Virus record (IMG/VR): IMGVR_UViG_3300006923_000155
Location: 1-21,224 of that record
DNA: 21,224 bases
Strand: one strand, 5' to 3'
Source of the DNA: a virus
Shown in pieces: positions 2,048 to 17,517 of this stretch. Below the pieces are notes generated by a model. The model did no database searches, had not been told where the DNA came from, and saw nothing but the letters and a program-made list of their open reading frames with translations. Numbering within the stretch: position 1 is the stretch's first letter; every line of letters starts with the position of its first letter. The translations under genes were made by a program, and so were the position numbers.

Positions 2048-4330
2048 GTGACATCTAACTTCAAAAAGCTAATAAAAACAATTCTTAACATTTTAATTGT
2101 TATGTTTTTAGTGGTTTTTATGATAGTGGCATGTGGTGACAATGATGGTAAATCGAATTCTGATCAGACTGTTTATGATTATCCCGAGATGGATGCAGAC
2201 ATTCCTATTGAAAACGATTCGGAAAATTACGATGTTGACGAAACGGAAGAAATAGAAGAAGATACCTACGAACAAGACTGTATTAGATGCGAAAGCTATT
2301 TTTGCCCTCCCCTTGATGCAATCTGGCAGAAAGAAATTTGTATTGATGAATGTACCGACCCTCCAACTATTGTTTTAGAAGGCGTTTGCGAAGAAAAACT
2401 TGAATGCGATCCTACCACACATATTCTTGAAAGTAACATTGATTGTATTACAGATGATGGATATCCCGGCACAAAAGATAAAACTTGCGAAAAGGGTTTA
2501 ATTTATTATACCAAATGCAAAACTGATTGCGTTCCTGAAGAATGTAATGGAAAAGATGACGATTGTGACGGATTAATCGATGAAGGCTTCAAGGATATCG
2601 AAGAAGTCTGCAACAATATTGATGATAATTGTAATGGAATTGTCGATGAAGGTGATTGGGGCACTTGTGACAAATTATGCGGCGAGGGAAACAATTTCTG
2701 TGTTGCTGGAGTCTTAGAATGTATTGGACCTGAGCCTGAAGAAGAGATCTGCGACGGTATTGATAATGATTGTGACGACGAAATTGATGAAGGAGTTTCT
2801 AATGCCTGTGGCGGGTGTGGAAAAGTTCCCGAAGAAGTCTGTAATGGGGTTGATGACAATTGTGACGGCAAGATCGATGAGGGACAATTAAATGCTTGTG
2901 GAAAATGTGGCCCAGTTGACGATGAAATATGCGATGGTATCGATAATGATTGCAATGGCTTAATAGATGAAGACCTTGTAGAAAAATGCTCAACCGATTG
3001 TGAAGAAAACTTACAGTTTTGTGTTAGTGGACAATGGATCTGCACCGCTAAACAACCAATGACAGAAGTTTGTAATGGTTTGGATGATGATTGTGACGGA
3101 AAAGCAGATGAGGGCTTAGATTGCCTTTGTACGATAAACGATATTGGCACTTTATTCCCATGTCAAGAGAGTCCTTTGGTATGCGGCGCGGGATATAAAA
3201 CTTGTGAATGCGTTGATCCAAATGATCCAACTTGTGCAGAATTGCAATTAACAGAATGTTTGGCCGTTTGTTATTGGCTTCCTGCCACAACAACACCCGG
3301 AACAATGTGTGATAAATATTTAGGAGAGATCAAACCAGAAGAATGTAACAATCACGATGATAATTGTAATCAATTGACAGATGAAAATTTATTTGCTGGT
3401 TGTTATAGTGGTGCGCCGGAAACAATGTTAGTGGGTATTTGTCTTCCCGGTGAAATGACGTGTTTGGCAGGCAAATGGGGCAATTATGACGATAATAACC
3501 AGTTTATTAAAAAGCTTTGTCTCGGGGAAATAACGCCCGAACCTGAAGACTTGTGCAATGGGACTGATTCGAATTGTGATGGCAAGATCGATGAAGATAA
3601 AGAACTCGAACCAACGGATATTCTTTTTATTGTTGATCTCTCCGGTTCGATGTCAGAAGAAATAAATGCCGTTATGGTTGCTTTGAACAAATTTGCTGCT
3701 TTTTATAGCGATTCCGAGATGATCAAATGGGGTCTTGTTTTTACAGCCTCTTATAATAGTAGCCTTTCAAAAGAACAAGTGGTTTTAGAAACGGACCTTG
3801 TTGATTTTGAAACTTTTATGAATATTTTTCAAAGTTCAGGTTTTTCTCTCAACGGAGGAGACGAACAAAATTATGATGCAATATATTTAGCAATTCATAA
3901 TTTAGTAAGTGCTGCTGTGCTTCCCTATCAATTGTCTGATTTAACTTGGGCGTCAAATCAATGGCAATGGGGCGCAAATACTGCTGGCTCTATTCCTGAA
4001 AAAGAAAAATGGGATATAAGTTGGCGAGACGATGCAAAACATGTAATTATTTTATTTTCAGACGAAGGAGGTCAAACATATTTTGATCCTAAAATAACAG
4101 AACAAATTCTTGCTAATATGATAAATGCTGCCGATGAACTTGCCGTTTATGTATTTTCTTCTTCCATGGTAATAAATGGAGGATGGGCCGACGATTATAA
4201 AATGTTGACTCAAGCAGGAATGGGTGGTAAATTATACGAATTGACGATGAAAGCCGTTGAGATGTATAATAATCTTCTTGAGATTCTCGACGAAACAGCG
4301 TGTGGTGGTAAAAACTCAACCACTCCATGA
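2048..4330 (+). CDS. MopE-repeat and VWA-domain lipoprotein
   Basis: A 760-residue secreted lipoprotein. Residues 1-28 form a signal peptide (basic KKLIK, then a hydrophobic run) ending in IVAC, with lipidation expected on C29. An acidic linker (about 35-75) and a Cys-rich part follow, then eight 15-residue repeats of the form CNGxDDDCDGxIDEG starting near residues 166, 188, 235, 265, 295, 342, 433 and 503. These match the MopE-type putative metal-binding motif, whose acidic and Cys residues suggest Ca2+ or metal binding. Residues about 524-745 are a von Willebrand A domain with an intact MIDAS start (D530, S532, S534) and a later ILFSDEGG. Start: GTG at 2048 gives a proper basic n-region; an internal ATG at 2102 would not. 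Such proteins are common on the surface of Myxococcota and related bacteria, so this is probably a host-derived moron. Confidence 0.85.
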   Translation: MTSNFKKLIKTILNILIVMFLVVFMIVACGDNDGKSNSDQTVYDYPEMDADIPIENDSENYDVDETEEIEEDTYEQDCIRCESYFCPPLDAIWQKEICIDECTDPPTIVLEGVCEEKLECDPTTHILESNIDCITDDGYPGTKDKTCEKGLIYYTKCKTDCVPEECNGKDDDCDGLIDEGFKDIEEVCNNIDDNCNGIVDEGDWGTCDKLCGEGNNFCVAGVLECIGPEPEEEICDGIDNDCDDEIDEGVSNACGGCGKVPEEVCNGVDDNCDGKIDEGQLNACGKCGPVDDEICDGIDNDCNGLIDEDLVEKCSTDCEENLQFCVSGQWICTAKQPMTEVCNGLDDDCDGKADEGLDCLCTINDIGTLFPCQESPLVCGAGYKTCECVDPNDPTCAELQLTECLAVCYWLPATTTPGTMCDKYLGEIKPEECNNHDDNCNQLTDENLFAGCYSGAPETMLVGICLPGEMTCLAGKWGNYDDNNQFIKKLCLGEITPEPEDLCNGTDSNCDGKIDEDKELEPTDILFIVDLSGSMSEEINAVMVALNKFAAFYSDSEMIKWGLVFTASYNSSLSKEQVVLETDLVDFETFMNIFQSSGFSLNGGDEQNYDAIYLAIHNLVSAAVLPYQLSDLTWASNQWQWGANTAGSIPEKEKWDISWRDDAKHVIILFSDEGGQTYFDPKITEQILANMINAADELAVYVFSSSMVINGGWADDYKMLTQAGMGGKLYELTMKAVEMYNNLLEILDETACGGKNSTTP
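2543..3598 (+). repeat. Eight coding repeats of the MopE-type metal-binding motif
   Basis: Residues 166-517 of the lipoprotein contain eight copies of C-N/D-x-x-D-D/N-x-C-D/N-x-x-x-D-E-G/D/N. Spacing is irregular (22 to 91 residues between copies), with extra Cys pairs such as NACGGCG between them. The DNA copies have diverged, so this is an old protein-level repeat and not a recent tandem duplication. Confidence 0.85.
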
Positions 4331-4680: not shown

Positions 4681-5421
4681 ATGTTTAAATTTCAACGACA
4701 CGCCAACGACTTAACAGACTTTTATCAGAAAAGATATAAAGTAAATCAAATGCCTCAGATAGTTTTCAAAGACGATGAGGAAAATAGCAAAAACGTCTTG
4801 GGAAGAACAGGACAATACGATCCTCATCAACAAATTGTTACTATTTTTACAACTGGTCGTCACGGCAAAGACATTTTAAGATCTCTCGCGCATGAACTAA
4901 TTCATCATTTACAAAATGAGCGCGGGGACTTAGAAAATATAAATTCAACGGAACCCGGCTACGCCCAAAATGACAGTCATATGAGAAATATGGAACGCGA
5001 AGCTTATGAACAAGGTAACTTGTGTTTAAGAGATTGGGAAGATCATATTAAAACAAACAACATTCAACTTTATGAAACTATTTATAAAGCAGACAAAACA
5101 AAGGGAGATTCAGTTATGTCAATCAAAGAACAGCGAAATGTAAATTTTCACAACAAACTCATGGAATCATGGGGATTTAGCAAAAAAGATGAGGAAAGCA
5201 AACTTCTGACAGAAGAAGTCGATGCTTTTATGGATTTAAACGTTGGCTGGGGCGGCGGCTCTGAAGTCTGGCCTAAAGATGATACCGTTGAAGATGGCGT
5301 AGATGATGAAGTTTCCCTCGAAGCTCATTCCGCTGACGCTGAAGAGCGCAAAGTAAACAACAAAGTCGAAGAAACCATTCGCAAGTCAATTAGAAGCATT
5401 CTAAAAGACATCGTAAAGTGA
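4681..5421 (+). CDS. HExxH zinc metallopeptidase-like protein with a C-terminal extension
   Basis: A 246-residue protein. The N-terminal 140 residues carry the zinc motif HELIHH (H71, E72, H75), and NMEREAYEQGN at 103-113 offers a Glu as third ligand, as in small gluzincin or SprT-like phage proteins. From residue 146 the character changes: MSIKEQRNVNFHNKLMESW, then an acidic tail ending KSIRSILKDIVK. An AGGGAG site at 5102-5107 precedes the in-frame ATG at 5116, so the tail might also be made as a separate protein. No clear Shine-Dalgarno site precedes 4681; a TATAAC lies at 4671-4676. Possible roles are prohead maturation or host protein cleavage; the substrate is unknown. Confidence 0.75.
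   Translation: MFKFQRHANDLTDFYQKRYKVNQMPQIVFKDDEENSKNVLGRTGQYDPHQQIVTIFTTGRHGKDILRSLAHELIHHLQNERGDLENINSTEPGYAQNDSHMRNMEREAYEQGNLCLRDWEDHIKTNNIQLYETIYKADKTKGDSVMSIKEQRNVNFHNKLMESWGFSKKDEESKLLTEEVDAFMDLNVGWGGGSEVWPKDDTVEDGVDDEVSLEAHSADAEERKVNNKVEETIRKSIRSILKDIVK
5116..5421 (+). CDS. Possible internal in-frame gene product (101 aa)
   Basis: ATG at 5116 lies 8 bases after AGGGAG (5102-5107), a better ribosome site than that of the full-length gene. The product would be MSIKEQRNVNFHNKLMESW and an acidic remainder. LMESW near its N-terminus recalls the LLENW helix of the two genes at 234 and 1648, which fits either a fused or an independently translated core-type protein. Evidence is limited to the ribosome site and the change in composition. 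Confidence 0.35.
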   Translation: MSIKEQRNVNFHNKLMESWGFSKKDEESKLLTEEVDAFMDLNVGWGGGSEVWPKDDTVEDGVDDEVSLEAHSADAEERKVNNKVEETIRKSIRSILKDIVK

Positions 5422-5669
5422 GTATTGACTTAAACGCCATTACTAGAAGATTTTTATTGGGAGAATCCAAAGCGGAGCCTTCAACGCGAGGTTATGTGGA
5501 ATCTGTTTTAAAAATTCTTAACGAAATGGTCCCTAAAAGCCAAAGACAAAGCAGGCAACTTGAAGTTGCCAAGAAACACCTTCAAGAAGTAAAGTTATTG
5601 AATCTCCGACTTGAAAAGAAGGTTAGAACATTAGAAGAACAGGTAAAAATCTTAGAAGAGGGAAAATAA
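5418..5669 (+). CDS. Small coiled-coil protein, prohead-core-like
   Basis: An 83-residue protein starting with GTG at 5418, overlapping the previous stop by four bases (GTGA). Residues about 37-81 have strong heptad character (KSQRQSRQLEVAKKHLQEV, then LRLEKKVRTLEEQVKILEE) and should form a coiled coil. The N-terminus contains RRFLLGES; the hexapeptide FLLGES occurs again in the next gene at residues 290-295. Size, charge and position between putative head genes suggest a scaffold or core component, but no family is recognised. Confidence 0.75.
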   Translation: MSIDLNAITRRFLLGESKAEPSTRGYVESVLKILNEMVPKSQRQSRQLEVAKKHLQEVKLLNLRLEKKVRTLEEQVKILEEGK

Positions 5670-8600
5670 ATGGGTGGTAACGCTGCTGAATCACTTATTC
5701 GAAAGTCTCTTTCTCACCACTCTTCCAACGAAGGGAAAGAACTTCATTATCGCTCCATTTCAAATACAGAATTAGATCAAGTCTTACCTTTTGAATATGG
5801 AACTCACACATCTGGTGATGAATCCATTGTTGGTTATCTTTTAAACGAACTTATAAAAGCAAATCTTATAGATCCTTCATATTTTCCCAAATTTGTCCTC
5901 GGTTCGACTCGCCTCGCTGCTATTTCGAAATATGGAGCAGAAAACATTGAAATTGACGACTTTGAAACAGAAGATGTAATACAAGGCGCATTAAATCAAA
6001 AAACTTCATTTGGTGATTTAGATATCGATGTCGTTATGACAAAACCTATTCGTGAAGTTACCGAATTCTTAAATAAATTAAAACCCGGAGCGCTTGCCGC
6101 TAAAACTGGTGCAGGCGAAATTCATCTCGCCGTTAAAATGGATGATGATTCAGTTTTACAAGTCGATCTTGTGAATGTTTCAAGTGGGGATGTTTCTAAT
6201 ACAAAATTTATACAATACAGTAGTTTTTTGGATCTCTCTCACAACATTAAGGGCGTCTTTGCGTCAATACTCCTCCGAGCGGTTGCATCGATAAAACAGC
6301 CTCAAAACTTAGCTCATTTTGAAGAGTTTGCAAAAGCGAATCCAGAAACTGATTTTGCTCAAGATTGGGACAAAATAGTTACTGCAGGATATAGGCCATT
6401 TCAGGCACGTTACATAGTAAGTCCCGAGCATTTGAAATTAGCAGTTGAGTTTGAAAAAGAAGGTGTAAAGACTGTTAAAAAATTGTTCTTTCCTGAATTT
6501 CAAAAGGATTACAACGATTTAGAATCTCTTGCGAAGTTTTTATTGGGTGAAAGCGCTAAAGGGCCTGAACTTTTACATGCGACGGCGCTGGCCGAATATG
6601 TTAAAAACAATTTTTCTAAGCAGCAAATCAATTCCATTAGAGAGCGATATGTCGATGCCCTTGAAGGCAAGATTAAAAAGGGAATTGATCCAAAAAGTTA
6701 TGAAACGGGTCTTAATTCAATTGTAAAAATTTTAAATACCGAAGAAGAACCTAAGAATCTTGTAAAAGAAGGTCGAAAAGGTATTGGAAGATTTGTTGGC
6801 TCAAGCAAACTCACGAATAAAAACGCCCTAGAGATTATTTATTATTTGATTCATCAATCTGATAACGTCGGAGAAAACCGTTTTTCTATTGATCTCCTTG
6901 AAGATCCAAGTAAAATCGATATGGTTGAGAAAATGGATTCCAATTTTATTTCAATTGGTCTCGACAGAAGAAAACAGTTTTTCATCGAATCAAGCAATAG
7001 CGGTTTGGTATATCCATCCACATATAAACAGAAATTTGGATTTTCCGTTGATTTTCTCAAGTCTTATGAGGCTTTGATGAACAATGAAGGACTTCAAAAC
7101 GCATTAAAGCAAATCTTTGATAAATTCGGTTCTTTTAAGATGAATTCTGAACTCTTTCCAATGTTGACTCACGGAGGAACAAGCGATGGGAGAGTTGTTT
7201 TTGTAGGGACACCCTATTTAAAAGAAAAATTTGGGTCTGAGGGTGGTCTTGCTGTTTTTAATGCCCAACTTTGGGACAGTAATAAAAATAGCTGGTATAG
7301 ACCCAAACAAGAAATCAGTTCTGAAATCGTTTCTGACTTTAAACAACTTTCAGAAGAAAACAATTTTAAAAACGAATGGAAAGTATATTCAAATGACGAT
7401 GATATGCTTTTGCCGGGGCAATTAGATATTAACCTTTATGGATTGGAAGGCTTCTTTGAAGATAAAGAATCCTTAAACCATTTAAACAAGCTTGTTAAAA
7501 AAGCAGAATACAAACAACGACTTAATAAAATCAAAAAAGACCTTCAGGAACAATTAGATAGATTTGCAAATTACTCACAATCTAATTTAGGCGGTGAAGA
7601 CTCTTATATGGAAGGCATTGTTCTGAGGATAAAGAAAGAAGACGGCGACTTCTTTGAAGTTAAAGGAACTTCAGAACAGTTTGACTTGAAAAAGAAAAAA
7701 TATTGGAATGACAGAGTTGAACTCTTAAATCTTGAAAAGGATTTTAATAATTCATTGATAGTAGATATTTTGGGCCTCCCAAGCGCTCATCCCGCAAGAA
7801 TCAATAAAATTTTAAAAACCTTTGTTTTTGGTAATTATGTCAACAAGGAAGAGATAAACAAAAAAGATTTTATATTCAATCTATTAGATTCTGGAGCTAT
7901 TTTTGGAGATTCTAATGTAGAAGTGGCGACAATTAAAAAGAAACTATCAGATCTAATTCAAGACGCAGAGCTTGAACTTCAAGAGATTTTAATCAATGTC
8001 AAAAGACAAGAAAATGAAAAAACTCTTGACAAAGATTCAATTAGAAAAACATATGAAATTTACAATTCAGTTGTCAAGCTCATTGAAAAATACGAACAAA
8101 CCCTTCAAATCGACAATGACGAAGATTTTATTGTTGAATTTATTTATTTAGCTCTTGAAAAACGAATTTCAAAAACAATAAACCTTGAAAATTCAACAAG
8201 CTATAAACCAGATGAAGGAAACTATCCAAAAGTTATTGTCATTCCCGGCAGATTCCAACCCTTTCACAAAGGACATCAGAAAATGGTTGAACTTGCTGTG
8301 GATTCACTTTCTGATGTTGGCGGAGATAAAGTATTAATTTATGTTGTTAAAGGAAACGCTTCAAGTCTTGATAATGAACAAAACCCATTAAGCGAACAAG
8401 AACAAATCGAACTCATTTCTTCCATCTATAAAGATAATCCGCAAGTTGAAGTGGCTCAAGATGTTATTCCCAATGCACATTTAGCCTCTTCTATTATTCC
8501 AAGTCTTTACGAGAAAGGATTAAAACTTGTTGGTTTGGCGGCTGGTCCCGATAGACTACCTCAATATAAACAATTTGTTTATGCATTTAGTCCGTCATAT

Positions 8601-10196
8601 TTTAAAGCAGATCACGAGTTCACTCCTATTGATAAAACGGAAACTGGTCACTATAATTTTAAATTCGTGGAAACGCCACGAATCTTTTCTGGTACTGAGG
8701 CGAGAAATCTTGCTAAGACAGCCACCTTTGATAATTTTCTTAATTCAGTTGTTGGTTCAAATGTTTCAGAGGAAACAAAAAATATTTATCACATGGTCTA
8801 TGATAAATTAAGAGGCGAAGAAAGTCAAGAAGAAACTGAGCAAAGCTTAGAGGAGGCCCGGTATAATCTGGGAATCTTTTGTGAGCTGATCAAAGAAATT
8901 GATGGCCAAGATGACGGTGAAAAGTATAAAATTCAAATCGAAAGGGCTTTTGAAAAGACCAAAGAAGAATTTATTTTCTTAAATGTTATAAAGAAAGAAA
9001 AACAAATAAAAAGATGGTTCGAAAACATTAAACGAAAGAGCGGAAAAACTCACAATATTGATTTTGATAAGGTTTTTTCAGAAATTATCGATTTTATAAA
9101 AAAGACAACAGTAAACTTTAATAGAAAATCTGATCCAACTGCCACAAAGGATTCTCAACCTCTTGAGTTCAATCAGTATGATAACGCTATAAATGTTTAT
9201 TCGTGGCCAACGTATTGGTTTAAACAATTTGGTTCTCCACAAGAAGGGTTCAAAACTCTAATGGTATATTTATCTCATGAATTGGGCCACTCAAAAGATA
9301 GAGCGCTTAAAATGGCCGCAAAAAAGTTTCATCTTTATGTTGATGGCTGGTTTAGTTCAGTTTTCTTAAAAACCTTAAAGGGGTGTTTTCCTAAATTAAC
9401 GCTAACGAGCGATGAACATCACGAATTGGTTTATGAATTTTATGGTTCCTTGCAAGAGCTTTTTTCATTCCTTGGGAGAGAATTTTTAATACCCGAGGAC
9501 GTTAAATTAGCTTATGTTTATCAGAACAAGAAACAAATACTTTTTCAAAAAAGCGAAACCGATCCAACAGGTTTTAGTGGATTGAGAAGAGAAAGTCCTC
9601 TTATTAAGAGTTGGCTGAAGAAGACACCAAACTTGTCAAAGAAATTGGACTTGTTTGATGCTATCATTTTCGTCGCTGCTAACGAGGTTTGGGAAACTGC
9701 TGATTTTAAAAACTGTCGCAACCCTTCAAACTTTTTAAAGGTAATGAATTCCCTTGCAAAAGTTGTCCCCAAGCTTAAAGCTCGTGAAACAAGATCACAA
9801 ATGGCCGAATCTAATAATGACGGTACAATGTTTGGAGTTGGAAGAGCACATTTGGGCCAAAATCTTGGTGGGAATCATAAGGTTGCGCCTGATGAGCCAA
9901 ACAGAGATAACGTTCACAACGAACCAGAAGAAACTTTTTCTTTAGAAGATTTAGGTTTAGAGATAAAAAACATGATAGCTGATAAGCTAAAAGAAAAAGA
10001 AAACCAAGTGACAATTAAAACCGGCCAAGAACAAGAAGACCTTGAAGAAATTTCTGCTATGGGCGCTGGGGCAGTTGAAGGCGCGGGCGGCCCTTTTGGA
10101 ATTCGAAAAAGAAAAAGAAAACCATCGAAGAAACCCATCGAAGAAACCACTATTAAACTTGCAAACTATTTATTAAAAATATCAGGAGAACAATAA
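5670..10196 (+). CDS. 1508-aa multidomain protein: NTase, RNA-ligase-like, NMNAT-like and HExxH peptidase domains
   Basis: Start ATG 5670 follows GAGGG at 5658-5662. Domains in order: (1) residues about 70-215, pol-beta-type nucleotidyltransferase, with LGS (77-79), GDLDIDV (115-121) and a third carboxylate D166; (2) about 385-690, covalent nucleotidyltransferase of RNA-ligase type, with motif I EKMDS (K421), Ia ESSNSG (440-445), III SELF (493-496), IIIa VFVGTPY (510-516), IV EGIVLR (648-653) and V EVKG (663-666); (3) about 853-1045, HxGH nucleotidylyltransferase, with GRFQPFHKGH (860-869) and SGTEAR (1007-1012), as in NMNAT or cytidylyltransferases; (4) about 1065-1370, metallopeptidase-like, with HELGH (1203-1207). 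The tail (1371-1508) is charged. Motif I has S424 where most ligases have Gly. Domain 3 may make NAD or another nucleotide conjugate. The substrate of each domain is unknown. Confidence 0.85.
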   Translation: MGGNAAESLIRKSLSHHSSNEGKELHYRSISNTELDQVLPFEYGTHTSGDESIVGYLLNELIKANLIDPSYFPKFVLGSTRLAAISKYGAENIEIDDFETEDVIQGALNQKTSFGDLDIDVVMTKPIREVTEFLNKLKPGALAAKTGAGEIHLAVKMDDDSVLQVDLVNVSSGDVSNTKFIQYSSFLDLSHNIKGVFASILLRAVASIKQPQNLAHFEEFAKANPETDFAQDWDKIVTAGYRPFQARYIVSPEHLKLAVEFEKEGVKTVKKLFFPEFQKDYNDLESLAKFLLGESAKGPELLHATALAEYVKNNFSKQQINSIRERYVDALEGKIKKGIDPKSYETGLNSIVKILNTEEEPKNLVKEGRKGIGRFVGSSKLTNKNALEIIYYLIHQSDNVGENRFSIDLLEDPSKIDMVEKMDSNFISIGLDRRKQFFIESSNSGLVYPSTYKQKFGFSVDFLKSYEALMNNEGLQNALKQIFDKFGSFKMNSELFPMLTHGGTSDGRVVFVGTPYLKEKFGSEGGLAVFNAQLWDSNKNSWYRPKQEISSEIVSDFKQLSEENNFKNEWKVYSNDDDMLLPGQLDINLYGLEGFFEDKESLNHLNKLVKKAEYKQRLNKIKKDLQEQLDRFANYSQSNLGGEDSYMEGIVLRIKKEDGDFFEVKGTSEQFDLKKKKYWNDRVELLNLEKDFNNSLIVDILGLPSAHPARINKILKTFVFGNYVNKEEINKKDFIFNLLDSGAIFGDSNVEVATIKKKLSDLIQDAELELQEILINVKRQENEKTLDKDSIRKTYEIYNSVVKLIEKYEQTLQIDNDEDFIVEFIYLALEKRISKTINLENSTSYKPDEGNYPKVIVIPGRFQPFHKGHQKMVELAVDSLSDVGGDKVLIYVVKGNASSLDNEQNPLSEQEQIELISSIYKDNPQVEVAQDVIPNAHLASSIIPSLYEKGLKLVGLAAGPDRLPQYKQFVYAFSPSYFKADHEFTPIDKTETGHYNFKFVETPRIFSGTEARNLAKTATFDNFLNSVVGSNVSEETKNIYHMVYDKLRGEESQEETEQSLEEARYNLGIFCELIKEIDGQDDGEKYKIQIERAFEKTKEEFIFLNVIKKEKQIKRWFENIKRKSGKTHNIDFDKVFSEIIDFIKKTTVNFNRKSDPTATKDSQPLEFNQYDNAINVYSWPTYWFKQFGSPQEGFKTLMVYLSHELGHSKDRALKMAAKKFHLYVDGWFSSVFLKTLKGCFPKLTLTSDEHHELVYEFYGSLQELFSFLGREFLIPEDVKLAYVYQNKKQILFQKSETDPTGFSGLRRESPLIKSWLKKTPNLSKKLDLFDAIIFVAANEVWETADFKNCRNPSNFLKVMNSLAKVVPKLKARETRSQMAESNNDGTMFGVGRAHLGQNLGGNHKVAPDEPNRDNVHNEPEETFSLEDLGLEIKNMIADKLKEKENQVTIKTGQEQEDLEEISAMGAGAVEGAGGPFGIRKRKRKPSKKPIEETTIKLANYLLKISGEQ

Positions 10197-11069
10197 ATGT
10201 CAGAATTTCAACTCAAGGGTGAACAAAGACTAAGAGAACTCATTAGAAGAAGCTATTTCATAATGAATGAAGTTGAAAATAAACAAAAAATTAGCGAAAA
10301 ACGTCTTCGTAAAGCTTTGAAAAAATTCATCAAAGAGGCTAAAGATAAACAATTTCATGCCTCCACTGGAGTTAACGAACTTGGAGTCGTTCTTGATTCC
10401 ATTTATGTAGTTTCAAAAGATGCCTATATGAGACTTGCAACATCTCCTGATCAACGAAAGGCTTATTTGATGACTTGGGAATGGCTTTTCAAAGAAGCCT
10501 TTTCTGGGGATATTAAAAGACGAAATGCCGTTGAAAAAGCTGCTGCTGAAGTCGCTAAAAGCGGGTTTAAAGCACAAGAGACCGAGGAAGAAGAGGTCGA
10601 TCTTAAAGAAGGAAAGGATTTGGATGGTGACGGTGAAGATGATAAAATTGTAATGAAAGTTACTGATCCAGATCTTCAAGTCAATGAACCAGAAGAGGAA
10701 GAACCGACACCAGAAGAAGCTGAACAAGCAGAAGAAGATTCAAGAATTTCTGATCTTGTATCTGCACCTGATGATATGGATAGAACCGGACCCGACGCGG
10801 CTATGAAAACTTTTCACAATACCAAAACAACAGTTCTTAAAGCTTTTGATACTTTAAGAGGAGATGATTCTGAAAAGTTTTATAAATGGTTTTTTATAAA
10901 TATGTTAGGTTCGGAAAGATCAGGATTTGCTGATGTTACTCAAGAGCCAGTTATTGGACATTTTCAAAATGCTGAAAAAGAACTTGAAGGTTTGGGAATT
11001 CCTACTGCCCCGGCTCTTCTCCCACCTGAAGATGTGGATGAGCTTAATTTAAGTTCTGATGATTTTTAA
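10197..11069 (+). CDS. Acidic 290-aa protein, possible head scaffold/core component
   Basis: AGGAG at 10184-10188 supports the ATG at 10197, which follows the previous stop directly. Residues 1-125 are mostly helical and basic (KGEQRLRELIRRSYFIMNE). Residues about 130-195 are very acidic (ETEEEEVDLKEG, then NEPEEEEPTPEEAEQAEED). The C-terminal part returns to a folded pattern with FYKWFFINMLG and a Pro-rich end. An acidic, helical protein after coiled-coil and targeting-helix proteins resembles phage scaffold or core proteins in general character, but no homologous family is recognised. It is the last gene of the 4681-11069 run; a 46-base AT-rich gap follows. Confidence 0.75.
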   Translation: MSEFQLKGEQRLRELIRRSYFIMNEVENKQKISEKRLRKALKKFIKEAKDKQFHASTGVNELGVVLDSIYVVSKDAYMRLATSPDQRKAYLMTWEWLFKEAFSGDIKRRNAVEKAAAEVAKSGFKAQETEEEEVDLKEGKDLDGDGEDDKIVMKVTDPDLQVNEPEEEEPTPEEAEQAEEDSRISDLVSAPDDMDRTGPDAAMKTFHNTKTTVLKAFDTLRGDDSEKFYKWFFINMLGSERSGFADVTQEPVIGHFQNAEKELEGLGIPTAPALLPPEDVDELNLSSDDF

Positions 11070-11115: not shown

Positions 11116-11523
11116 TTGAAGTTTGTAAAGAGATTTAAGATTAAAGATTTAAAAAATAAGAAACAACTCTCTAAAAGATACAGTGTAATCAATAAGTTAA
11201 AGGCTGAAGATAAAATATCAGATTCTGTTTTAACTGATCTGAATGATCTCTCTCTTGAAGAAATAATAGCAGTAAAACTTGAGTTGACAACAAGATTTTT
11301 ATGTGGTAAACTCTATGGACTTCCTGTTTGGAGAGTCTCAAAACAAGCTGTTACAGATGCTCTTTTAAAAACAGCACTAAGTATTTCAAGAACTAAAAAA
11401 GAGGGAGCTTTATTTCTTGGTATAAATTATTCTGAATATCAAAAATTACTTAAGAAATATAAAACAGTTTCCTTTTTTGAATCTGGGGGTGAAATGGTTT
11501 CGACAGAGAAGAAAGAAATTTAA
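11116..11523 (+). CDS. Fis-type helix-turn-helix DNA-binding protein
   Basis: A 135-residue basic protein. Residues about 82-117 (DALLKTALSISRTKKEGALF, then LGINYSEYQKLLKKY) match the Fis-like HTH pattern, in which a conserved helix precedes the turn and recognition helix. It is probably a phage transcription regulator. The only usable start in this frame is TTG at 11116 (or ATT at 11113), without a Shine-Dalgarno site. An ATG at 11109 is out of frame by one base in a TTTT run; deleting one T would give MNLKFVKRF. The last 12 codons (from G124) and the stop lie within the tmRNA gene that begins at 11485. Confidence 0.75.
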   Translation: MKFVKRFKIKDLKNKKQLSKRYSVINKLKAEDKISDSVLTDLNDLSLEEIIAVKLELTTRFLCGKLYGLPVWRVSKQAVTDALLKTALSISRTKKEGALFLGINYSEYQKLLKKYKTVSFFESGGEMVSTEKKEI

Positions 11524-11792
11524 TGTGCAAGGCTGTATGAGTAATACAGTAAAAATACTCAACTTTTTTAATTGCCAACAATAATGTTGAAATTGATTAC
11601 GCACTCGCTGCTTAATCGGAAGTTTTTAGTAACTTTCTAAACAAATACTAAACATTTCCAGTTTTAAGAAAAACTGGTGGTACGCGCAAGCGGGTTTTAA
11701 GTTTGTTGAAGTTCAAATAATCAACTAACCTTGTGAATGACATATTTTTTAATCTTTTTTGGACTCGGGTTCGACTCCCGACACCTCCACCA
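11485..11792 (+). ncRNA. ssrA: tmRNA (transfer-messenger RNA)
   Basis: Rescues stalled ribosomes by adding a degradation tag. The 5' end GGGGGTG (11485-11491) pairs with CACCTCC (11782-11788) as a seven-base acceptor stem with a G3-U70 pair, the alanyl-tRNA synthetase signature. Discriminator A11789 and an encoded CCA (11790-11792) follow. The 5' region holds the hallmark TGGTTTCGAC. The T arm is TCGGG-TTCGACT-CCCGA (11765-11781). P2 pieces can pair: AAGAAAG 11509-11515 with CTTTTTT 11754-11760, and AATGTG 11522-11527 with CATATT 11741-11746. Hairpins that may form pseudoknots lie at 11533-11549 and 11658-11677. The tag frame is 11574-11615. At 308 bases it is shorter than the E. coli RNA (363). 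It overlaps the 3' end of the HTH gene by 39 bases. Confidence 0.95.
11574..11615 (+). other. tmRNA tag-peptide reading frame
   Basis: The resume codon GCC at 11574 opens the frame A-NNNVEIDYALAA, ending in TAA at 11613-11615. Together with the alanine carried by tmRNA the tag is AANNNVEIDYALAA. The YALAA end is shared with E. coli (ANDENYALAA), where it directs proteins to ClpXP. The 13-codon frame is slightly longer than the E. coli one. Confidence 0.9.
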
Positions 11793-12679: not shown

Positions 12680-12894
12680 TGTCAACAAAGCGGTTTGCTT
12701 TTGACAAAGATGGAAACAAGGTTTTGATTGGCTCCAAAGTCTTCTTTGAGAACAAAATTTACATAATCGAGGACATTGAATACTTGAGTTGGAATGTTAA
12801 TCAGTATCTTACTCTTTCTGAACTTAAGAACAAAAACAAAAAAGTTCAGTTTGTTTCTTCTCATGAAATTTCTTCAAAGGAAAAAATTAGATGA
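12679..12894 (+). CDS. Unknown 71-aa protein
   Basis: ATG at 12679 with AAAGGA (12665-12670) eight bases upstream. The sequence (FAFDKDGNKVLIGSKVFFEN, then KIYIIEDIEYLSW) suggests a small all-beta, SH3- or KOW-like fold, but no named family is recognised. It overlaps both neighbours by a few bases and so belongs to the same operon as the GAPDH gene. Confidence 0.7.
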   Translation: MSTKRFAFDKDGNKVLIGSKVFFENKIYIIEDIEYLSWNVNQYLTLSELKNKNKKVQFVSSHEISSKEKIR

Positions 12895-13976
12895 AAAAGA
12901 ATGTTTTAATTATTGGAACGGGAACCATTGGAGAACCTTTGATTGGCCTCCTTTCAGACTTTAAAGATCAGCTTGAGATAAACGTATTCTTTCATAAAAG
13001 AACACCTCTTGAAGATGAAGTGGCAAAAGTCAACAGTTTAACAGAAAGAGGCGCTAAATTGGTCGTTGACCAAGAAAGGGTCAAAGAATTTCAAGATTTG
13101 GGACATGAACCAGTTCTTAATTACGAGGCTGCCTTGGGAATTTCAGATGTTGTTATAGATTGTACTCCTGCAGGCAATAAAGCAAAAGAAGAACATTATC
13201 TACCACTTCTCAAGGTAAAAGAATGCGGAGCTAAAGAAAATAAAAGAGTCTTTATTGCCCAAGGGAGCGAAAAAAACTTTGGCGTTCCTTATGCTTTTGG
13301 AATAAATGATGAAATTCTATTAAAGAAACAGCCTCAATTTATACAAGTGGTAAGCTGCAATACTCATAATATTTCTTCTATTGTGGATACGTTATCTTCT
13401 GGAAATATGTTAAATGTTGTGAGCGGAGATTTTACTTGTATCCGCAGAGCAAATGACATCAGCCAAGAAGGAGATTTTATTGCCTCTCCTGAGATTGGTA
13501 AACATAAGGATCTTGTTTTTGGAACTCATCACGCACGAGACTCTTATGATCTTTTTGCAACGATGCATCATCATCCGAATCTTTTTTCAAGCGCCCTGAA
13601 GATCAATTCTCAATATATGCATATTCTTCGCTTTTGTGTTGAAATCAAAGGAAGCCCTTCCAAAGAAGATGTTTTGAAAAAGTTTCAAGAAAACAAATTC
13701 ATTGCACTGACTAAGAAAAATCTCACAAACAAAGTCTTTTCATTTGGCCGCGACCATGGATACTATGGACGAATTTTCAATCACACCGTCATTGCAGAAA
13801 ATTCATTGATTTTAAACAGGGTTGGTGGAAATACGAAAGTAACTGGTTTTTGTTTCACTCCTCAAGACGGAAATTCCATTTTAAGTAGCATTGCAGCAAG
13901 TCTTCATGCAGTTCATGGAGAAAAATATAAGGAGCTTATGTCAGTATTTGATAAATTTCTATTTAGTCATGTATGA
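12891..13976 (+). CDS. Type II (archaeal-type) glyceraldehyde-3-phosphate dehydrogenase homologue
   Basis: A 361-residue protein; ATG 12891 has AAAGGA (12876-12881) nine bases upstream and overlaps the previous stop (ATGA). The N-terminal Rossmann motif GTGTIGEP (9-16), VVIDCTPAGNKAKE (87-100) and FIAQGSE (121-127) follow the order of archaeal GAPDH. VVSCNTHN (153-160) carries the catalytic Cys C156, as in SCNTT of that family, and CIRRANDISQEG matches its substrate-binding RRAxDP region. The enzyme would oxidise glyceraldehyde-3-phosphate with NAD(P), or a related aldehyde. Family members are known from archaea and some bacteria but are unusual in phages. It could instead act on another phosphorylated aldehyde. 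The cofactor preference cannot be read with confidence. Confidence 0.8.
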   Translation: MKKNVLIIGTGTIGEPLIGLLSDFKDQLEINVFFHKRTPLEDEVAKVNSLTERGAKLVVDQERVKEFQDLGHEPVLNYEAALGISDVVIDCTPAGNKAKEEHYLPLLKVKECGAKENKRVFIAQGSEKNFGVPYAFGINDEILLKKQPQFIQVVSCNTHNISSIVDTLSSGNMLNVVSGDFTCIRRANDISQEGDFIASPEIGKHKDLVFGTHHARDSYDLFATMHHHPNLFSSALKINSQYMHILRFCVEIKGSPSKEDVLKKFQENKFIALTKKNLTNKVFSFGRDHGYYGRIFNHTVIAENSLILNRVGGNTKVTGFCFTPQDGNSILSSIAASLHAVHGEKYKELMSVFDKFLFSHV

Positions 13977-16589: not shown

Positions 16590-16826
16590 GTAGATGAGAG
16601 TCCAGAGCTTTTAAAGAAAGTGGAAAAAGAAACACCAGTAAAATCTTGGCTTGTTGAATATGTCGGCAAGCAATTAGATCCAAAGAATGACGAAGTGAAC
16701 GTAGAAATGATTATTGAGGTCATGGCTTCGGAATTCCCTGAGTTTCTGCTCCCAATCGCTGAAGAAAACTTTATTAGGGGATATCAGCAAGCAATGGCAG
16801 ACATTAAAACAGCAAGAACAGCCTAA
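16578..16826 (+). CDS. Small 82-aa conserved-looking phage protein
   Basis: ATG 16578 is preferred over the in-frame ATG at 16566, because GGAGG (16568-16572) sits five bases before it. The protein (MKYNVDESPELLKKVEKE, later VEMIIEVMASEFPEFLLPIA and ENFIRGYQQAM) is helical and acidic. It resembles, from memory, small proteins of marine T4-like phages without assigned function. The open frame of the next gene overlaps its 3' part, but the likely start of that gene is after this stop. Confidence 0.75.
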   Translation: MKYNVDESPELLKKVEKETPVKSWLVEYVGKQLDPKNDEVNVEMIIEVMASEFPEFLLPIAEENFIRGYQQAMADIKTARTA

Positions 16827-16833
16827 AACAATT

Positions 16834-17517
16834 TTGGAAGAATATATAAAAAATTCATCGATTAAACTCTTCGAACGAGTTTATCGTCTTCACGGTCATC
16901 AGGTTTATATGGTAAAACCGTTCACGAATGATATAAATTTTGCTTCTGCTTTATCAAAGATCGAAGAAGTCGTCCCTGAACACCTTATGAATAATTTTGA
17001 GATGATCTATGTTGCAAACTTTGACAATTTGAAAGAAAAGGGGCAAGATTTTAATGCGCTTTTCAAAGACGGCGCAATTTACATTTCAAATGACCAAGAC
17101 AATGCAGAAGATCTTATAGATGACATTGTTCATGAGATTGCCCACTCGATAGAAAGCAATGAACAATTAAATGATATTATCTATGGAGATAATGCTTTGG
17201 AATCTGAATTTTTAGCGAAGAGACAGTCTTTATATCATTTGATTGACAAACCAACAACAAATATGTTATACTATACAAATCCTGATTATGATAAGAGCTT
17301 TGACAAGCATCTTCATCAAGATTTAGGCTATGACTATTTAAGAACAGCGGCGTCTGGACTATTTTATTCTCCTTATGCCATTACTTCTCTTAAAGAATAC
17401 TGGGCAAACGGATTTGAAAACTATTTGTTGGGCGATCCTTTTAAATTACGAGATTTGAGTCCTGTTCTTTTCGATAAGGTTTCAAAAATTTTAGACACTG
17501 GAAAGGAATATAAATAA
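16834..17517 (+). CDS. HExxH metallopeptidase-like phage protein
   Basis: The frame is open from 16714, but upstream codons lie over the 82-aa gene. The best start is TTG at 16834 (or ATT at 16831), giving MEEYIKNSSIKLFERVYRLHG and 227 residues. No ATG and no good Shine-Dalgarno site are present, so the start is uncertain. The core motif is DDIVHEIAHSIES with H100, E101 and H104. A conserved acidic stretch (DQDNAEDLIDDI) precedes it and an ESEFLAKR segment follows that could supply the third zinc ligand. This is the third HExxH protein in the window, and its substrate is unknown. From memory, similar proteins occur in uncultured marine T4-like phages. Confidence 0.75.
   Translation: MEEYIKNSSIKLFERVYRLHGHQVYMVKPFTNDINFASALSKIEEVVPEHLMNNFEMIYVANFDNLKEKGQDFNALFKDGAIYISNDQDNAEDLIDDIVHEIAHSIESNEQLNDIIYGDNALESEFLAKRQSLYHLIDKPTTNMLYYTNPDYDKSFDKHLHQDLGYDYLRTAASGLFYSPYAITSLKEYWANGFENYLLGDPFKLRDLSPVLFDKVSKILDTGKEYK

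Follow-up and report, generated by a model that had tools for sequence, protein, structure and literature searches.

A conserved phage triad of predicted nucleotidyltransferase, ligase and NMNAT domains, fused in one viral protein, as a candidate module for RNA repair and NAD+ restoration

Why a single phage protein should join several unrelated domains for nucleotide transfer, and what such domains would do together, is the question raised by one open reading frame on a viral DNA stretch of 21,224 nucleotides (IMG/VR virus record IMGVR_UViG_3300006923_000155, positions 1 to 21,224), here called the window. The frame opens with ATG at 5670, with a strong AGAGGG ribosome-binding site upstream and an in-frame TAA directly before it at 5667, and encodes a 1508-residue protein with the N-terminus MGGNAAES. 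A preliminary description, made from the sequence, had read in it a Pol-beta-like nucleotidyltransferase (NTase), an RNA-ligase-like domain, an NMNAT-like domain and a HExxH peptidase, and had named the joining of separate genes by assembly error as one finding that would overturn this picture. A second IMG/VR contig, IMGVR_UViG_3300025133_008937 (31,211 bp), was found to encode a 100% identical 1508-aa protein and agreed with the window contig at 99.95% identity (9 mismatches over 17,795 bp), which ruled out an assembly chimera as the origin of the frame. Every motif quoted in the description was located in the protein, with GSTR at residue 78, FGDLDIDV at 114 and QVD at 164-166 in the NTase; EKMDS at 420, ESSNSG at 440, SELFP at 493, EGIV at 648 and EVKG at 663 in the ligase; and GRFQPFHKGH at 860, SGTEAR at 1007 and HELGH at 1203 beyond them. 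The parts of the protein are arranged as follows.

5670..10196, + strand: whole open reading frame, 1508-aa multidomain protein (frame and translation; identical in the second contig)
5670..6674, + strand: likely Pol-beta-superfamily-like NTase domain, residues ~1-335; GSTR at 5901, FGDLDIDV at 6009, QVD at 6159 (invariant motifs; AlphaFold2 and Foldseek)
6777..7769, + strand: predicted RNA-ligase-type adenylyltransferase domain, residues ~370-700 (motifs, invariant columns, AlphaFold2 and Foldseek)
Ligase motifs, + strand: I EKMDS at 6927, Ia ESSNSG at 6987, III SELFP at 7146, IIIa LAVFN at 7248, IV MEGIV at 7608, V EVKG at 7656
7770..8204, + strand: helical segment between ligase and NMNAT, residues ~701-845 (AlphaFold2 secondary structure; kept in relatives)
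8217..8825, + strand: NMNAT-like (NadM-type, HxGH) domain, residues ~850-1052; GRFQPFHKGH at 8247, SGTEAR at 8688 (profiles; Foldseek)
8895..9869, + strand: possible zincin metallopeptidase region (motif only); HELGH at 9276-9290, residue 1203

Matches of the whole protein to PF01467 and to the PHROG cytidyltransferase/NMNAT families fell on the NMNAT segment only, and the NTase, ligase and HELGH parts had no Pfam match. When the whole protein or single domains were used as query for close relatives in IMG/VR, the sister contig alone was returned; a scan of genome contigs gave two Chryseobacterium NMNAT matches and nothing else, and PADLOC gave no match. An AlphaFold2 model of residues 1-1075, built from 15 alignment rows (pLDDT 85.4, pTM 0.50), and the conserved motifs nevertheless supported the claim that the chain combines three unrelated folds for nucleotidyl transfer, with the fold matches of the NTase being individually weak.

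The NMNAT-like domain carries the GRFQPxHxGH and SxTxxR motifs of NadM-type enzymes on a predicted HIGH nucleotidyltransferase fold. It matched PF01467 over the cut-off (E 1e-6) and PHROG 3041 and 395 (E 1e-14), its residues GRxQPxHxGH and S...AR were invariant among homologues, and Foldseek returned NMNATs for the AlphaFold2 model at probability 1.00, in keeping with the earlier assignment of residues 845-1050. Archaeal NMNAT models matched under their curated cut-offs (E 2e-6 to 8e-6), and the score against TIGR01527 (25.5 bits) lay so far under the curated NCBIfam NMNAT threshold of 181.2 that the domain must be regarded as divergent and its substrate as uncertain.

Residues ~1-335 are likely, judging from alignment and model, to form a Pol-beta-like NTase. 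G78/S79, D116/D118/D120 and Q164/D166 were invariant in 10 homologues, giving the G-S motif, the D-h-D motif and the third Asp on a strand that characterise this superfamily, in a placement that fits the predicted helix and strands. Modelled alone (pLDDT 87.6, pTM 0.79), the domain had FAM46A, Pol lambda/mu, TUT7, Cid1, CutA, LnuA and an aminoglycoside adenylyltransferase as its top Foldseek matches, many of them Pol-beta members and each one weak (best E 0.01, best probability about 0.6, low TM, unrelated folds intermixed). In view of the invariant catalytic motifs these matches are consistent with a Pol-beta NTase, as had been proposed for residues 1-300; the sequence profile found nothing credible in Pfam or PDB.

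Residues ~370-700, described before as an RNA-ligase-like domain at 380-700, had the predicted adenylyltransferase fold of the covalent nucleotidyltransferase (RNA ligase) superfamily. Foldseek matched them to the adenylyltransferase domain of a fungal tRNA ligase (9qw7, E 5.7e-5, probability 1.00) and to an archaeal RNA ligase (5d1o, probability 1.00), with which they share the fold at ~10-14% identity; among the matches in BFVD were the RM378 and Aeromonas RNA ligases and S-PM2 cytidyltransferase-like proteins, and the sequence profile had no credible match in Pfam or PDB. The Glu-Lys and Asp of motif I, the Glu of motif III, the Glu-Gly of motif IV and the Lys-Gly of motif V were invariant across 8 homologues. 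The canonical motifs K-x-D-G (I) and K-x-K (V) were not present in the window, where, differing from 9qw7 and 5d1o, motif I reads K-x-D-S (KMDS) and motif V E-x-K (E-V-K). K-x-D-S was also found in most relatives, K-x-D-G being retained in L151 and L153 and in the cultured phages Marzo and X1. Both the motif I Gly and the two motif V Lys residues are important for activity in T4 RNA ligase 1, so the competence of the domain is uncertain, and its sealing activity may, from these replacements, be lost or altered.

The arrangement had been thought to be isolated, which proved not to be so. Scanning IMG/VR for FGDLDIDV identified the relatives L131, L132 and L135, and alignment-based scans identified L142, L151, L153 and L154. 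Like the window, two of these relatives, L142 (1406 aa) and L154 (1597 aa), hold NTase, ligase and NMNAT in this order in a single chain. In five contigs (L131/L143, L132/L144, L135/L145, L151 and L153) the three are divided between two adjacent genes a few nucleotides apart; in L131, L132 and L135 the first of these encodes the NTase and the second the ligase together with the NMNAT, colinear with the window. Cultured phages of Stenotrophomonas (Menderavirus) and the Xanthomonas phage X1 carried the triad as separate genes of one run, ordered NTase, unknown gene, ligase, NMNAT (Marzo 053-056; X1 WEM34317-34320). Marzo 056 is the NMNAT gene, reached through the match of the NMNAT domain to Stenotrophomonas phages. 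Over 7168 open frames, Marzo 053 was the best non-member match to the NTase profile (E 0.007) and Marzo 055 the second-best non-member match to the ligase profile (E 0.23); their motifs read MGGN...GSYR...GDVDI for the NTase and KMDG...SRSG...HAECLP...IEGVI for the ligase. The X1 matches were at E 3.4e-11 for the NTase and 1.5e-16 for the NMNAT, and the ligase was weak at 0.53 but had KLDG and EGVV, so that in both phages score counts for less than motifs and position in identifying the ligase. When complete genomes were searched, the NTase profile had a single match in each, inside the triad run (X1 E 8e-12, Marzo E 0.002). Vibrio phage Va1 also gave an NTase match (E 5e-4), with no ligase or NMNAT neighbour established. 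The gene between NTase and ligase in the Stenotrophomonas and Xanthomonas phages (L005 4372-5316 and L176 8011-9015) has, by eye, a possible PD-(D/E)XK-like motif.

Since the triad keeps its order and its adjacency whether it is fused, divided between two genes or encoded gene by gene, it looks like a functional module, and the three predicted enzymes probably work together. The literature searched, which covers the field incompletely, held no description of it. The wider occurrence applies to three domains and not to four, since a chain that also contains HELGH was found in the window lineage only. HELGH itself is present at residue 1203 as the preliminary description had said, and is rare by chance (0.025% of shuffled 1508-mers, against 3.9% for HExxH anywhere), so a peptidase is plausible from the motif; no relative of the region was found in IMG/VR, INPHARED, PDB or Pfam, it had no fold match, and HExxH was absent from all other triad proteins (L142, L154 and the two-gene forms). 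By these comparisons the region is an optional, lineage-specific addition, peculiar to the window, outside the conserved module. Another gene of the window, at 16714-17517, has a third HExxH (HEIAH), and its homologue (E 1e-45) lies in L161, on the contig of L142.

The genes on either side of the frame were the following.

4681..5421, + strand: 246-aa gene of its own with HExxH (AHELIHH), ahead of the module; a homologue likewise precedes the fused L142 module, E 3e-38
5418..5669, + strand: small coiled-coil-like gene, 83 aa; phmmer E 1.7e-12 to L142 8581-8862, ahead of the L142 module
10197..11069, + strand: acidic 290-aa gene; the fused L142 protein ends in a homologous region, phmmer E 2.6e-12
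11485..11792, + strand: tmRNA gene downstream of the module, tag ANNNVEIDYALAA (ARAGORN)

Homologues of the 4681, 5418 and 10197-11069 genes on the L142 contig indicate that the whole locus is conserved. The neighbours had been called coiled-coil and acidic scaffold-like genes; coiled-coil-like and acidic genes are indeed there, but the homology of the acidic gene to the C-terminal part of L142 places it with the locus and not with a scaffold.

We tentatively favour, with slightly more doubt than belief, a reading of the triad as a counter-defence module in which RNA repair is combined with NAD+ restoration during infection. The Pol-beta-like NTase would add back nucleotides lost at damaged RNA ends, probably those of tRNA; the ligase domain would adenylate itself on Lys421, pass the adenylate on to the 5'-phosphate end of the cleaved RNA, and join that end to the restored 3' end; and the NMNAT domain would adenylate NMN, supplied by a phosphoribosyltransferase of phage or host, to NAD+. 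The targets of such a module would be host defences that cleave RNA and drain NAD+.

What adjoins the module is in keeping with the RNA-repair part of this reading. The window has its tmRNA gene, and an Rnl2-type ligase gene (E 1.7e-15) and a large tRNA array with a tmRNA come after the module in G002; downstream of the L142 module lie a long array of tRNA genes and a tmRNA. Phage RNA repair by a Pol-beta NTase paired with a neighbouring RNA ligase has also been described, for RlaP (PF10127) and ATP-grasp RNA ligases, which have been proposed to refill and reseal cleaved tRNA (PMC7824862). The triad differs from these pairs in that its NTase has an NMNAT as fusion partner or as a member of its gene run, and has no PF10127 match: at a threshold of E 10 the profile found nothing in the module contigs or in the genomes of the cultured phages, whereas control genomes did match. 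Against RNA repair, canonical Rnl1 ligases have genes of their own in the complete genomes of the cultured phages, with an Rnl2-type ligase as well in X1, so that the triad ligase would not be the sole one. Polynucleotide kinase and KptA were not recognised in the module, where they were looked for unsystematically.

The NMNAT fits NAD+ salvage, in that Marzo and X1 each encode an NMN-making enzyme of the NAPRTase family (E 9e-42 and 7e-46); none was found in the extended contig of the window or in the other module fragments, all of which are incomplete. Similarly, in phage NadV-NadM/NadR salvage a NadM-like NMNAT is present, and every NadM phage in a published survey also carries NadV (PMC9503650), while the NMNAT of the triad, unlike NadM/NadR, has no Nudix or P-loop kinase fusion and is joined to an NTase and a ligase.

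The same chain could instead be an effector of the polyvalent type, packaged in the head and injected, in which unrelated enzymes share one vehicle, are separated by a metallopeptidase after entry and act on different host targets. The window protein does hold several unrelated predicted enzymatic domains in a single chain, as do polyvalent proteins, large multidomain phage chains in which zincin MPTases (in about 36% of them) are joined with Pol-beta NTases and other enzymes (PMC5512222, where NMNAT is not mentioned). Relatives lend this some weight. A pattern scan for GRFQPFHKGH yielded 120 stretches, most with the NMNAT first, a variable middle of 400-1600 aa and an EKTDG...EGIVF ligase-like domain last, and a few with the ligase first (L076, L089, L026); in the huge phage LR756500.1 (265969-269176) a ligase-first gene adjoins an NMNAT-first gene. 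The domain of gene 4681-5421 is fused inside many such chains, more than 20 of them, at E 1e-10 to 1e-5. An [LI]xE leader was present in 68 of 82 NMNAT-ligase relatives against 28.7 +/- 4.1 in shuffled sequences, the relatedness of the sequences meaning that these counts are not independent, and MxFxxF starts occurred around the module in 15 of 313 genes of the contigs against 3.0 +/- 1.7. T4 capsid-targeting sequences span ~10 N-terminal residues, and gp21 trims short N-terminal peptides from packaged core proteins (PMC9958956); a cytidylyltransferase homologous to NMNAT was detected in virions of cyanophage S-CREM2, for which the authors allow carry-over (PMC10665884).

We consider this alternative unlikely for the triad, as constant order and neighbourhood in fused, two-gene and separate forms argue for cooperation, and as the window protein has neither a typical polyvalent partner domain nor an [LI]xE-ending leader of the T4 capsid-targeting type. 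A general leader regex over whole contigs gave no clear enrichment, and the leader of the NMNAT-first (class A) chains was not found on other genes of their loci. Delivery has a place in the favoured reading too, in that the triad proteins of some lineages may, on such indirect signs, be head-packaged and injected. In the majority of module NTases GG directly follows a leader whose last residue is Glu, and the window, Marzo and X1 begin MGGN, so that cleavage after Glu or removal of Met would be expected to leave the same GGN terminus. Neither gp21 nor gp23 was found in the module contigs, which are fragments; both were present in wider-family contigs. A T4 prohead-protease domain (PF03420) was matched inside a 668-aa open frame in L159 (G013 46515-46862).

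That the module restores NAD+ alone, the NTase and ligase being degenerate or serving as sensors of RNA damage while the NMNAT (with NAPRTase) acts against defences that deplete NAD, we regard as improbable. It would explain why the NMNAT is the most recognisable domain, why motifs I and V of the ligase deviate and why both cultured phages have a NAPRTase-family gene and other ligases; the NTase carboxylates, ligase Lys421 and the motif III and IV residues are, however, invariant, which would be unexpected for dead domains. A different chemistry, in which one substrate is worked on by all three domains in turn, so that for instance RNA 5' ends or proteins receive or exchange an NAD-like or nucleotidyl group, would be undescribed end-modification chemistry used by phages during infection and would suit the non-canonical motifs I and V, the constant order and the separate canonical RNA ligases of the cultured phages, but is very improbable given that each domain has an ordinary reading.

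The trio is conserved and, in the literature searched, undescribed, with NTase and ligase members invisible to Pfam. Its fused forms act as a Rosetta stone linking three genes of cultured Stenotrophomonas and Xanthomonas phages, two of them annotated 'hypothetical', by which a possible link between RNA repair and NAD+ restoration in phage counter-defence becomes directly testable; its ligase adds an RNA-ligase-like family that is new and unusual in its active-site motifs. Close to the triad in composition are the 'cytidyltransferase' proteins of cyanophages and IMG/VR (PHROG 3041, PHROG 395; S-PM2 A0A0M6VVW4 and Q5GQJ8; Microcystis phage Mel-JY01), which share the NMNAT and of which many have the EKTDG...EGIVF ligase-like domain, an [LI]xE leader and HExxH domains. 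They differ from the triad in usually placing the NMNAT first and the ligase last, and no NTase of the window family was detected in them; the ligases were not confidently linked by profile, and homology of the NMNAT-first ligase to that of the window is suggested at motifs IV-V only, the part aligned by hhalign (probability 2.7%), and is not claimed. Polyvalent proteins, for their part, differ from the triad in that its order is constant.

Several further observations were made on these contigs. Proteins with an N-terminal NMNAT and a C-terminal ligase-like domain are widespread (L006-L125), and their highly variable middles contain HExxH by profile and, by eye, P-loop kinase-like, HD-like and tRNA-NTase-like segments. 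Downstream of the window in G001 (L127), a long run of nucleotide-sugar, glycosyltransferase and NeuA/NeuB-like genes was seen by eye. Within the window, the gene at 12891-13976 resembles type II (archaeal-type) glyceraldehyde-3-phosphate dehydrogenase (E 2e-22, under the curated cut-off), and the unrelated genes at 234-1646 and 1651-2001 have a common leader-like start (LILENWRRYQKEVLSE and PLLENWKKFLKEE), possibly a targeting peptide. The gene at 2048-4330 encodes a 760-aa protein with six stretches of MopE-type metal-binding motif (PF11617, E 6e-26) and a weak VWA-like C-terminus, which is unusual for a phage.
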